Below are positions 3,516-15,409 of a stretch of 52,143 nucleotides of DNA, piece after piece; position 1 is the first letter of the stretch; each line of letters begins with the position of its first letter. Below the pieces are notes generated by a model, which made no database searches, was not told the origin of the DNA, and saw only the letters and a program-made list of their open reading frames with translations. Origin of the DNA: Clostridia bacterium. GTDB lineage: Bacteria > Bacillota > Peptococcia > DRI-13 > SV3-B141. Position numbers and translations under genes: made by a program. The stretch covers positions 1-52,143 of the forward strand of contig JAHDSB010000070.1 in assembly GCA_018433015.1 (NCBI GenBank), given 5' to 3'.

Positions 3516-4049
3516 ATGATTCAGGCTGTACAACAAGTTTCCCGCTGGGCTGTTCCTGTACTAATTTTCTTTATTCTACTTTTTGCAGCCTTACGGGGAG
3601 TAAAAGTGTATGAATGTTTCATAAAAGGGGCAGAAGAGGGTTTTTCTTTAGCTGTACGTATAATTCCCTATTTAGTAGCTATGATGATGGCGGTAAGTAT
3701 ATTTAGGCAAACAGGAGTTTTGCAACTCTTCACAAAATACGGGGAAAATATATTTGAGGCTTTAAGTATACCTCCCGATATCATACCTTTAGCCCTGATG
3801 CGCCCCTTCTCAGGGGGAGGGGCTTTGGGAATAACAGCTGAAATTATTAATACCCATGGACCCGATTCCTTTTTAGGACGCTTAGCATCAACTATGCAAG
3901 GCAGCACTGATACTACCTTTTTTATTCTCACCGTCTATTTCGGTTCGGTAGGGATAAAAAAATACCGCTACTCAGTAGCGGTAGGATTATTAGCCGATTT
4001 AATTAGTTTTATTGCGGCTATATATATTTGTAATTTAGTATTTATGTAG
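3516..4049 (+). CDS. spmB: Spore maturation protein B
   Basis: SpmB pairs with SpmA in spore core dehydration. Its 177 residues carry the paralogous Gate-domain features: IIPYLVAMMMAVSIFRQTG, LALMRPFSGGGALGI and a GSTDTTFFILTVYFGSVGI segment near the C-terminus. The start follows a G-rich ribosome binding site inside the end of spmA. A perfect 9-bp hairpin (TACCGCTAC/GTAGCGGTA, 3963-3983) lies within the coding sequence near the 3' end. Only three bases separate its stop from the convergent transporter gene, so no intergenic terminator fits here. Confidence 0.94.
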   Translation: MIQAVQQVSRWAVPVLIFFILLFAALRGVKVYECFIKGAEEGFSLAVRIIPYLVAMMMAVSIFRQTGVLQLFTKYGENIFEALSIPPDIIPLALMRPFSGGGALGITAEIINTHGPDSFLGRLASTMQGSTDTTFFILTVYFGSVGIKKYRYSVAVGLLADLISFIAAIYICNLVFM

Positions 4050-4052
4050 CAA

Positions 4053-4988
4053 TTAGTGGCTATCTGTTACTACATCAATGTGTACAAGAGCTGAAATACC
4101 AAATTTTTTGTTTATCTTTTTCATTACCCGATCGGCAATTTGATGAGATTCTAACGCGGTTAAGTTAGGTTGTACTTCCACATGCAAATTAACATATGTT
4201 TTTGGTCCATAACGATGAACTTCTACTTGGTGTAGGTTTTCAGCACCATCAACAGTTAGTACTTCCTTTTCCAACCTTTCTATAAATGCATCCGTAGGAC
4301 CTCTACCAATCAGATCAGTGGAACAGTCTTTAATTATTTCATAACCGGTGTACATAATCATCAAGGAAACGATAATCCCAAAAATTCCATCTAAATTTGT
4401 AAAACCAAGTTTAGTTCCATAGAGGGCAGCTGCTATTAATAAAGAGGATAACGCGTCACTTCTATGATGCCAGGCATCGGCAATTAAGGCATTGGAATTG
4501 ATTTGTATTCCGAGAAACTTGGCTAAATGGTAGTACCATTCTTTTACTAAGGCGGTAAGTAAGATAACGATCAGCGCTATATGGTTATATGCTACCGGTT
4601 CGGGATTCATTATTTTGTTTATAGAACCTTTTAAGATTTCTATACCGGCAATGATGAGAAGGAATGAAACCACGAAGGAGGCAATATATTCTGCTCTACC
4701 ATAGCCGTAAGGATGTTGTTTATCTTGGGGTTTTTTCGATATTTTAAAGCCTATGACAACTGCGATGGAAGTGAGAACATCGGAAAGGGAATGAAAAGCA
4801 TCGGCTATTACGGAGATACTATTTATCCATAGACCACAAAGGAGTTTGCAAAGAAATAAGACAAAGTTTCCAATGATACTGGCGTAACCTTCAAAGTATC
4901 CGTAAGAAGCACGTACTGTTGGATCGCTAGTATTCTCCCAATTTTTAATAAACTTTTTAATTAGAAAAACATTGATTCTTTTGAACAT
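4053..4988 (-). CDS. Cation diffusion facilitator, downstream paralogue
   Basis: This is a CDF-family proton-coupled metal exporter in the cytoplasmic membrane. The start at 4988 (MFKRINVF) follows AAAGGTGATAAGA and aligns with the paralogue's MFTKINSF; the frame extends upstream without a good site. It has six membrane segments. The metal site shows as ADAFHSLSD in TM2 and ADAWHHRSD in TM5, HxxxD patterns usual for Zn/Co/Ni-type CDFs rather than Mn types. The cytoplasmic dimer domain carries VHRYG and HVEVQPNLTALESHQIAD. It is highly similar to the gene just upstream, a tandem duplication, but has its own consensus promoter and lacks a visible riboswitch. Confidence 0.92.
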   Translation of the reverse strand: MFKRINVFLIKKFIKNWENTSDPTVRASYGYFEGYASIIGNFVLFLCKLLCGLWINSISVIADAFHSLSDVLTSIAVVIGFKISKKPQDKQHPYGYGRAEYIASFVVSFLLIIAGIEILKGSINKIMNPEPVAYNHIALIVILLTALVKEWYYHLAKFLGIQINSNALIADAWHHRSDALSSLLIAAALYGTKLGFTNLDGIFGIIVSLMIMYTGYEIIKDCSTDLIGRGPTDAFIERLEKEVLTVDGAENLHQVEVHRYGPKTYVNLHVEVQPNLTALESHQIADRVMKKINKKFGISALVHIDVVTDSH

Positions 4989-5147
4989 TCTTATCACCTT
5001 TCTTATTGCTATTAATATTGAGATTGTAAAAATAAAATCTGAGGTACTAGATAGCACCACAGATCATATTTACCACGTAGGACATAGTATTATTTTCTAG
5101 TTTTTGATAAGCAATCGGTTCAAGGAACAGATTCAAAAAACTATTAA

Positions 5148-5176
5148 ATTATAACATAATATCCGTCAAATGTCAA
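5148..5176 (-). promoter_or_regulatory. Consensus sigma-A promoter for the downstream CDF gene
   Basis: On the minus strand TTGACA (5176-5171) and TATAAT (5153-5148) are separated by exactly 17 bp: both hexamers are perfect. The -35 box overlaps the stop codon of the upstream CDF gene. The predicted leader is about 150 nt. Confidence 0.85.
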
Positions 5177-6147
5177 GAAAAAGATTGATCTGTAACTAGT
5201 GGCTTATGGGGTGCTGGCTTTTTTTGCACGGGGTCTATATGGACGAGGGCTGCAATACCTAATTTTTCATTTAAATTATTCATTACGGTATCAGCAATTT
5301 CGTGGGATTGTAAGGTATTCAAAGTAGGGTCTACTTCGATATGCATGTATGCATATTGCTTCTGTCCGTATTTATGGACTTCTATTTGATGAACGTTTTC
5401 TGTGCCCGATATTGACAATACTTCTTGTTTAATTTGCTCAATTAATTCGGGAGATGGAGCAGTACCGATTATATCGTTGGCACAATCCTTAATCAGTTCG
5501 TAGCCGGTGTACATAATCATAAAGGAAACGATGACTCCTAAAATTGCATCAAGGTTATTAAATCCTAATTTTGTTCCATAGAGGGCAATACCGATTAACA
5601 AAGAAGCTATAGCGTCGCTACGATGGTGCCAAGCGTCGGCGATTAAAGCCTTAGAATCAATTTTTAGCCCTAAATACTTAGCTAAGTTATAAAGCCATTC
5701 TTTAGCCAGGGTAGAAAAAAGCATAATTCCGAATACGATATGATTATAATGAGTTGGTTCCGGGTGGAGTAATTTGTCTATAGAGCCTTTTAAAAATTCA
5801 ATACCTACAATAATAAGTAAGGTTGAAACAATAAAAGTAGCAATATATTCTGCTCTGCCGTGACCGAAAGGATGTTCTTTATCTCCGGGTTTTTTTGATA
5901 CTTTAAAACCTACAATAACTGCCACGGATGTTAGAACATCGGAAAGTGTATGGAAAGCGTCGGCTAAGAGAGAAATACTGTTTATCCACAAACCTCCGAT
6001 AAGTTTGAGAACGAATAAAAGAAAATTACCTAATACGCTAATGTAGCCTTCTAAGTAGCCATAGGAAGCACGAACGGAGGCATCCTGGGTATCTTGCCAG
6101 TTGGGGATGAATTTTCGGACCAGGAAGGAATTGATTTTTGTGAACAT
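5173..6147 (-). CDS. Cation diffusion facilitator, riboswitch-controlled paralogue
   Basis: This CDF-family metal efflux protein has 324 residues from the start at 6147 (MFTKINSF). Of the three in-frame ATGs at 6156, 6153 and 6147 only the last lies at a good distance from AAAGG. TM2 has ADAFHTLSD and TM5 ADAWHHRSD, the metal-binding HxxxD pairs. The cytoplasmic domain has VHKYGQKQYAYMHIEVD. A proline/lysine-rich tail follows that the paralogue lacks. The leader carries a NiCo riboswitch and terminator, so the likely substrates are cobalt and nickel (inference from regulation; the protein family itself also exports zinc). Confidence 0.93.
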   Translation of the reverse strand: MFTKINSFLVRKFIPNWQDTQDASVRASYGYLEGYISVLGNFLLFVLKLIGGLWINSISLLADAFHTLSDVLTSVAVIVGFKVSKKPGDKEHPFGHGRAEYIATFIVSTLLIIVGIEFLKGSIDKLLHPEPTHYNHIVFGIMLFSTLAKEWLYNLAKYLGLKIDSKALIADAWHHRSDAIASLLIGIALYGTKLGFNNLDAILGVIVSFMIMYTGYELIKDCANDIIGTAPSPELIEQIKQEVLSISGTENVHQIEVHKYGQKQYAYMHIEVDPTLNTLQSHEIADTVMNNLNEKLGIAALVHIDPVQKKPAPHKPLVTDQSFS

Positions 6148-6197
6148 TGGCATCATCCTTTCAGTAATAGTTTATGCGTATATGGGAATTTATTTAT

Positions 6198-6238
6198 AAA
6201 AAAAACTGTGGAACTGCTAATAAATAACAGTCCCACAG
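6198..6238 (-). terminator. Riboswitch expression platform: terminator in the CDF leader
   Basis: On the minus strand CTGTGGGACTG (6238-6228) pairs with CAGTTCCACAG (6216-6206), 11 pairs including one G-U, followed by eight T (6205-6198). The 5' arm is the same sequence that forms the 3' end of the NiCo aptamer, so aptamer and terminator exclude each other. Confidence 0.9.
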
Positions 6239-6321
6239 ATTATTTTCTGCTGCATATTGCCCGGCTTACATCAATAAAATAATTCTTTGCAAAAATTATT
6301 TTATTGACAGCCTGATCCGTT
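6226..6321 (-). promoter_or_regulatory. NiCo (czcD) riboswitch aptamer
   Basis: Read on the minus strand, the leader holds the ordered NiCo hallmarks: AACGG closing with CTGTT (P1), ATCAGGC, a long P2 (CAATAAAATAATT with AATTATTTTATTG), AAGCCGGGC with a short P3, then CAGA/TCTG (P4) followed by TGGGAC. This matches the architecture I recall for the Ni2+/Co2+-sensing riboswitch. The gene controlled is a CDF exporter, the classical target. A TTTACA-17-TAAACT promoter candidate lies just upstream. The remaining bases between the aptamer and the permease gene hold only the repeat/hairpin at 6416-6508. Confidence 0.88.
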
Positions 6322-6415
6322 TAAGTTGATGAATATTCATTTTTTAGTACAAAATACAACTAAAGTTTAACATATTAATTTCGGTTTGTAAAGACCTAAT
6401 TTAGCTGGAAGTGTA

Positions 6416-8135: not shown

Positions 8136-8942
8136 ATGGCAGGTAGTTTTTTACTTATGTTTAGAGAAGGTCTTGAAGCAGCCCTAATAGTGGGAATCAT
8201 TCTAGGTTATTTAGCAAAAATAAATAAATCAAATTTAAATAGCTATATTTATGGTGGTGTTGTTAGCGCCTTGGTAGCCAGTGGAGTGACAGCCTATTTA
8301 TTTGAAAAATGGGCCGGGGGGTTTGCGGGAAAAAATGAAGAAATGTTTGAAGGTATTATCATGATAGTGGCTGTAATCTTGCTAACTACCATGATTCTTT
8401 GGATGAAAGAACAAAGTAAGACGGTTCAAGGTGATATCCAAAAGAAAATTGATAAAGTAATTAGCAGCAATAGAGCCTGGGGTTTAGCATTGCTAGCTTT
8501 TTTATCGGTTTATCGGGAAGGAGTAGAGGTTGTACTATTTTTTAAAGCCATTTCCACAGATAATAGTGCCTCAGATCTTTATTTAGGTTCCATCCTAGGG
8601 TTAGCAGCGGCGGTGATTTTGGCATATCTAATATTTAAAAGTACAATCAAATTAAATTTAAGTCAGTTCTTTAAGATAACTGGTGGAATAGTTATTTTTA
8701 TTGCTGCAGGCTTATTTGCCCATGGTATTCATGAATTACAGGAGGCCCGAGTGTTTCCTGTAGTAATAGAACATATTTATGATGTTAATGGCATACTGAA
8801 TGAAAAAGGTACTATTGGATCATTGTTAAAAGCTATGTTTGGCTATAATGGAAATCCTTCTCTATTAGAAGTAATAGGATATTGGATCTATTTAATAGTT
8901 GCTGTTCCCCAATTTTTCCAACTTAAACTTAATGCCAAGTAA
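8136..8942 (+). CDS. FTR1-family iron permease
   Basis: FTR1/EfeU-type permeases carry ferric iron across the membrane. The protein has 268 residues, about seven membrane segments and the two diagnostic REXXE motifs: REGLE (residues 10-14) in TM1 and REGVE (127-131) in TM4. The start follows AAGGAGGGG. No EfeO/EfeB partner or periplasmic iron protein is adjacent, so it is a stand-alone permease here. The next operon builds Fe-S clusters, a plausible consumer of iron, but a separate promoter divides them. Confidence 0.88.
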   Translation: MAGSFLLMFREGLEAALIVGIILGYLAKINKSNLNSYIYGGVVSALVASGVTAYLFEKWAGGFAGKNEEMFEGIIMIVAVILLTTMILWMKEQSKTVQGDIQKKIDKVISSNRAWGLALLAFLSVYREGVEVVLFFKAISTDNSASDLYLGSILGLAAAVILAYLIFKSTIKLNLSQFFKITGGIVIFIAAGLFAHGIHELQEARVFPVVIEHIYDVNGILNEKGTIGSLLKAMFGYNGNPSLLEVIGYWIYLIVAVPQFFQLKLNAK

Positions 8943-14673: not shown

Positions 14674-14779
14674 TATAATGCTTTTAACAAAGACAGAGTA
14701 GACAGTTCATTTTGTTTTTAGGGATGGGACGTTGCCCTGAGAACTTCTTCAGTAGGTGGACTGTTGCGTTCGCTGTCAC
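14674..14779 (+). promoter_or_regulatory. Tetrahydrofolate riboswitch, with -10 promoter box
   Basis: A perfect TATAAT (14674-14679) precedes an element with the THF-I layout: GACAG (14692-14696) pairs with CTGTC (14773-14777) as P1; GAGTAGACAGT and GGTGGACTGTTGCGTTC are the conserved inner strands; GGGATGGGACGTTGCCC forms the internal arm. The order and spacing match the THF class I recall from Clostridia. It lies upstream of folT, a known target. The -35 box is weak. Confidence 0.85.
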
Positions 14780-14839: not shown

Positions 14840-15409
14840 ATGAGAAGATTTACAACAAGACAGATGGTGTATATGGCCTTATTAATAACCCTTAACATCA
14901 TCTTAACAAGAATGGCCAGTATTCACATTGTATTTGGAGGAGTAGAAGGTGTAAGAGTAGGTTTTGGCGGCTTACCCGTTATTTTAGCAGGTGTTATGTT
15001 AGGGCCTATAGCCGGTGGATTAGTGGGTGCTTTAGGCGATATATTGGGATATTTTGTAAACCCCATAGGAGCATTTATGCCTCATTTTGCTTTAACAGCG
15101 GCTTTACGGGGGATTATACCCGGCTTATTATTATTTAACAGTAAAAGGGTAGCAAGTTTTTGGTACACCCTGTTAGCTGTTGCAGTAGGACAAATAATTT
15201 CCTCCCTTATACTGGTGCCATATTTCTTAAAGCTTTTATTTGGCATTCCCATTATAGCTACATTACCTGGGCGCTTGATCAGTCAAGGGTTGACTATTCC
15301 TTTTTATGCAGCAGTAACTGTTATGTTGATGAAAAGAATTTATGCAGAGGAACAATCCTTGTTTTACAATAACCAGTATTCCTTAATTCAGAAATGTTCC
15401 GAGAAATGA
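14840..15409 (+). CDS. folT: ECF transporter S component for folate
   Basis: FolT is the membrane substrate-binding subunit of an energy-coupling factor transporter; it shares the EcfA/EcfT module encoded elsewhere. The 189-residue protein begins with the basic TTRQMVYMALLITLNIILTR segment. It then has the conserved small-residue helix FGGLPVILAGVMLGPIAGGLVGALGD and a YFVNPIGAFMPHFALTAALRG loop typical of the folate-specific group. The THF riboswitch in its leader strongly supports folate as substrate. A perfect palindromic terminator closes this single-gene unit. Confidence 0.9.
   Translation: MRRFTTRQMVYMALLITLNIILTRMASIHIVFGGVEGVRVGFGGLPVILAGVMLGPIAGGLVGALGDILGYFVNPIGAFMPHFALTAALRGIIPGLLLFNSKRVASFWYTLLAVAVGQIISSLILVPYFLKLLFGIPIIATLPGRLISQGLTIPFYAAVTVMLMKRIYAEEQSLFYNNQYSLIQKCSEK

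Follow-up and report, generated by a model that had tools for sequence, protein, structure and literature searches.

The CDF locus and its leader RNA

The window is the whole stretch of DNA that was analysed, 52,143 nucleotides long. Two adjacent genes for CDF cation exporters lie on its minus strand, and we refer to them as CDF 1 and CDF 2. The features of the locus are given in the order in which they would be transcribed.

6364..6392, minus strand: possible promoter, TTTACA-17-TAAACT with an extended -10 TG (weak, 9 of 12)
6226..6329, minus strand: NiCo (czcD) riboswitch aptamer (RF02683; a transcript that stops at 6226 has the NiCo four-way junction as its minimum free energy fold)
6206..6238, minus strand: intrinsic terminator stem-loop, 14 bp, loop UUUAU (terminator scan; hairpin -21.5 kcal/mol)
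6198..6205, minus strand: U tract of the terminator, eight T (sequence and terminator scan)
5173..6156, minus strand: CDF cation exporter 1, the regulated gene (PF01545 1.6e-49, PF16916; TIGR01297 228.2 bits)
5148..5176, minus strand: perfect sigma-70 consensus promoter, TTGACA-17-TATAAT with TG (12 of 12), at the end of CDF 1 and ahead of CDF 2
5028..5064, minus strand: terminator-like hairpin AUCUGUGGUGCU/AGUACCUCAGAU (one mismatch) followed by UUUAUUUUU, in the CDF 2 leader (fold -13.2 kcal/mol)
4053..4988, minus strand: CDF cation exporter 2, likely start ATG 4988 (MFKRIN) (PF01545 4.3e-49)
3963..3983, minus strand: terminator behind CDF 2 (terminator scan)

The initial annotation placed a CDF exporter behind the first leader. 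The matches of 5173-6156 to PF01545, PF16916 and TIGR01297 bear this out, and the TIGR01297 score is far over the cut-off for the CDF superfamily (228.2 vs 82.35 bits). The true start is likely ATG 6147 (MFTKIN), which has AAAGG ahead of it. The name of the family gives no indication of the metal.

The leader itself had been taken for a NiCo riboswitch, and a covariance-model search was named beforehand as the check. The result is significant. Using cmscan and Rfam 15, RF02683 (NiCo) matches 6329-6226 of the minus strand with 45.9 bits, where the curated cut-off of 37 bits was our threshold for membership. The E-value is 2.6e-7 for the whole window against 4227 Rfam families, and the match spans model positions 1-96 of 96. 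It is the sole NiCo match of the 3.75-Mb genome, with an E-value of 4.4e-9. The aptamer pieces are all present in the claimed order on the minus strand. P1 is formed by AACGG at 6321-6317 and CTGTT at 6230-6226. CAGGC at 6314-6310 is followed by the AT-rich P2, and then by AAGCCGGGC at 6267-6259, which contains GCCGGGC (6265-6259). P3 is GCA-ATA-TGC. P4 is formed by CAGA at 6249-6246 and TCTG at 6239-6236, followed by TGGGAC. GGGC and GGGAC, the two guanine runs, are both intact, with GGGAC directly 3' of the UCUG of P4. The guanines of GCCGGGC and UGGGAC bind metal in the NiCo class (PMC7689651). The start of the aptamer had to be corrected, as its real 5' end is about 8 nt further upstream than first given.

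It is worth considering whether the stretch is just an ordinary intrinsic terminator behind an AT-rich hairpin, with a likeness to NiCo that is due to chance or decay. A score of 45.9 bits is modest compared to the best NiCo loci, which reach 60-85 bits. Leaders that have a terminator but no aptamer, probably through decay, are seen both at 5028-5064 of the window and at a locus in a relative (L053). However, all of the core motifs are present here, the score clears the curated cut-off, and the genome-wide E-value is 4.4e-9. We rejected chance or a plain terminator on the cmscan score and the genome-wide E-value, and regard this scenario as extremely improbable. We argue that the leader at 6329-6198 is almost certainly a NiCo (czcD) riboswitch that governs whether transcription continues into the gene for a CDF metal exporter.

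Other riboswitches were seen in the window and the genome. A THF riboswitch (RF01831) at 14692-14777 of the plus strand scores 39.9 bits against a cut-off of 36. It precedes an ECF transporter S component at 14840-15409 and is ordinary. The manganese riboswitch (yybP-ykoY, RF00080) has two matches in the same genome under its cut-off of 45 bits. These are L083 (G000:C7:3252-3334) with 35.1 bits and L084 (G000:C47:1869-2009) with 30 bits.

The proposed switch and its metal

Folding of the leader between 6329 and 6198 gives -43.7 kcal/mol, while shuffles of it give -21.9 +/- 3.3 (z -6.6). When the transcript is cut at 6226 the minimum free energy fold (-28.0) consists of P1, P2, P3 and P4, the same four-helix junction as the NiCo consensus. 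The full leader to 6198 adopts the terminator fold at -43.7 kcal/mol. If the terminator arm is blocked the leader returns to the aptamer fold at -28.7 kcal/mol. The 5' arm of the terminator runs from the 3' strand of P4 through the junction GGGAC into that of P1, and its partner is UAGCAGUUCCACAG. Since the 3' strands of P4 and P1 double as the terminator arm, the aptamer and the terminator are mutually exclusive. This overlap and the eight T are as originally described, but the stem is not the 11 bp reported there. It has 14 bp, of which 11 are strong and 3 are at the loop. Of the two states the terminator is favored by about 15 kcal/mol, which means that switching would have to be kinetic and occur during transcription, as is usual for the class.

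We propose the following scenario. When there is little metal, the RNA behind the polymerase would give up the four-way junction of the aptamer for the 14-bp terminator, and transcription would halt at the U tract. When Ni2+, Co2+ or Fe2+ is available, the guanines of GCCGGGC and UGGGAC would bind at least two ions in a cooperative manner. The aptamer held by metal would then block the terminator, the exporter would be made, and the metal would be lowered. Since the terminator prevails whenever the aptamer is left free, an aptamer held by metal during transcription would give an ON switch. Bound metal prevents the overlapping terminator in the NiCo class (PMC7917058, PMC7689651), and it is from this class that we infer that metal binds here, that it does so cooperatively, and which way the switch works. 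The ON-switch logic of the initial annotation holds up, with a direction that would follow the class, and the overlapping terminator and the CDF gene recur in relatives. The gene behind the leader is most likely switched on when nickel, cobalt or iron(II) accumulates in the cell. A scan for the promoter of this leader gave sites that are no commoner in the region than in shuffles, and the placement of the possible promoter at 6364-6392 is not convincing.

The published data on the metal of the NiCo class conflict (PMC7689651). The class was first described, in the account these papers give, as sensing nickel and cobalt (PMC7689651, PMC7917058). A later study, as it is cited in PMC7689651, found that the czcD riboswitch responds to Fe(II). 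By the same citation, that study considers the affinities for Ni and Co to be too weak for the cell, and binding at cellular levels to be limited to Fe(II) and Mn(II) (PMC7689651).

This raises a rival that concerns the ligand only. The same RNA could have Fe(II) rather than Ni(II) or Co(II) as its natural signal, and CDF 1 would then be an iron exporter. The reported Fe(II) response of the czcD riboswitch, as cited in PMC7689651, is in its favor. So are the closest solved structures to CDF 1, which are FieF (2qfi and 3h90), a protein named "ferrous-iron efflux pump" in two entries. A nearby EfeU/Ftr1-type iron permease gene (8136-8942) and iscR-nifS-iscU-like genes, whose names were assigned by reading translations, also argue for iron, but weakly, and gene neighbours are a weak guide. 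However, the metal-site motifs of CDF 1 are HxxxD in TM2 (ADAFHTLSD) and HxxxD in TM5. FieF has DxxxD in TM2, which CDF 1 lacks. HD-HD sites are commoner in CDFs of the Zn/Co type. CDF 1 is also far under the cut-off of the FieF equivalog NF050169 (135.7 vs 420 bits), and it is under the cut-offs of all of the equivalogs. We consider Fe(II) as the natural signal a serious possibility, if somewhat less likely than not. The NiCo assignment is the same under either ligand. It can be added that the permease, of the FTR1/EfeU type, is on the plus strand about 2 kb from the riboswitch, and that its 253.6 bits are just under the EfeU equivalog cut-off of 255.

The second exporter and probable loss of the sensor

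CDF 2 is the adjacent paralogue of CDF 1, with 64% identity. In the tree the two form a clade with the orthologues of family f8 outside (support 99/98), and CDF 2 is on the longer branch. By this tree the pair is a duplication in this lineage. A scan of genome contigs for closer CDF homologues found two distant loci only.

The CDF 2 leader has a hairpin (AUCUGUGG...) with a T tract that resembles the NiCo terminator, and its fold has a z of -3.15. No match to the NiCo aptamer was found in this leader (5140-4989) at E-values up to 10, and it has none of the NiCo core motifs. On these results we rejected a NiCo aptamer ahead of CDF 2. A DNA search for homologues of this leader in 60 relatives gave short chance matches only. 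Leaders 1 and 2 align with a score of 114.5 while shuffles give 93.5 +/- 6.1, and 1 of 1000 shuffles reaches 114.5. Among 4156 real windows the leader 1 window is the best outside leader 2, but barely (115.5 vs 114.5). These alignments are suggestive of common descent for the two leaders. We argue that the hairpin at 5028-5064 is a probable remnant of a NiCo leader, and that CDF 2 is probably a lineage-specific duplicate that has lost its sensor.

There is a comparable case in genome G012. In the leader of its CDF orthologue (L053, 1290-1410), UUCUGUGGGACUU from the 3' end of the NiCo element is still present, as is a terminator with seven T. This leader has no aptamer core, and a 9-bp tandem repeat, TTTAATAGT, is present in 4.4 copies ahead of the retained 3' end. 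It is likely that in both G012 and CDF 2 the sensor was lost and the terminator was left behind.

One might suppose instead that the CDF 2 leader (5140-4989) functions as a regulatory RNA of some new or much altered kind, which would be known from one sequence. After duplication of the gene it may have departed from the NiCo class, and it may now answer another signal. GAAUCUG at its 5' end could pair with CAGAUU of the hairpin as an antiterminator. We find this very unlikely, and loss of the sensor is our preferred scenario. The window offers a natural pair, with adjacent CDF duplicates of which one has a complete metal-sensing leader and the other has a hairpin without an aptamer. Together, the CDF 2 leader and L053 suggest an order for the decay of such riboswitches, in which the sensor is lost first and the terminator last.

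Comparison with relatives and known structures

The search of relatives covered 60 genomes, the window's own and 59 others, and found 24 NiCo loci, including the window, in 22 of the 60. The class was found in 77 of 299 genomes in a sample of the phylum. Of the 24 loci, 23 carry a hairpin and T tract overlapping the aptamer at its 3' end, and in L014 such a hairpin can be made out by eye. A CDF gene, recognized by its TM2 motif, is downstream in 20 of the 24. Within f8, the nearest family, five members have a close CDF orthologue, and NiCo leaders precede it in four of them, the exception being G012. The four closest full-length CDF orthologues, which are 59-62% identical and belong to f8, are all behind NiCo leaders.

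The long AT-rich P2 and the very short P3 had been called unusual, a view that does not survive this comparison. The core could be parsed in 23 loci, including the window. The spacer from CAGGC to GCCGGGC varies from 5 to 70 nt over these loci. It is 44 nt in the window and two loci have a longer one. About five other parsed loci have a P3 as short as the window's. Both helices are inside the range of the 22 other parsed loci, which rules out a special P2/P3 architecture.

An unusual NiCo relative was seen ahead of a CDF gene in G056 (L023, 1501-1583). It has no room for P3, CUGCGAGAC replaces CUGUGGGAC, and the terminator arm is altered to match. No other leader of this type turned up when 398 genomes were searched by pattern.

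The aptamer, terminator and CDF gene of the window recur together in L020, L013, L016 and L014, which belong to order-level relatives (G007, G014, G020 and G022) and whose CDF proteins are 59-62% identical to that of the window. The cores of these four are CAGAC/GUCGGGC, whereas that of the window is CAGGC/GCCGGGC. A tandem second CDF copy like the one in the window was not found alongside these loci. On the side of the protein, FieF/YiiP (2qfi, 3h90) has its fold and dimerisation domains in common with CDF 1, but its TM2 site is DxxxD where that of CDF 1 is HxxxD.

Among the closest known systems is also the NiCo class itself, RF02683, with the crystal structure 4RUM from an Erysipelotrichaceae bacterium. 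The four-helix junction, the overlapping terminator and the CDF exporter downstream are common to it and the window, as is the core CAGGC / GCCGGGC / GCAGCAG / UGUGGGAC. The P2 of the window is longer and AT-rich (the 44-nt spacer) and its P3 has 3 bp, but these differences are within the spread of the relatives. The element adds to a known class and would work as published for that class. It is one more well-formed NiCo riboswitch, from a lineage where the class is common.
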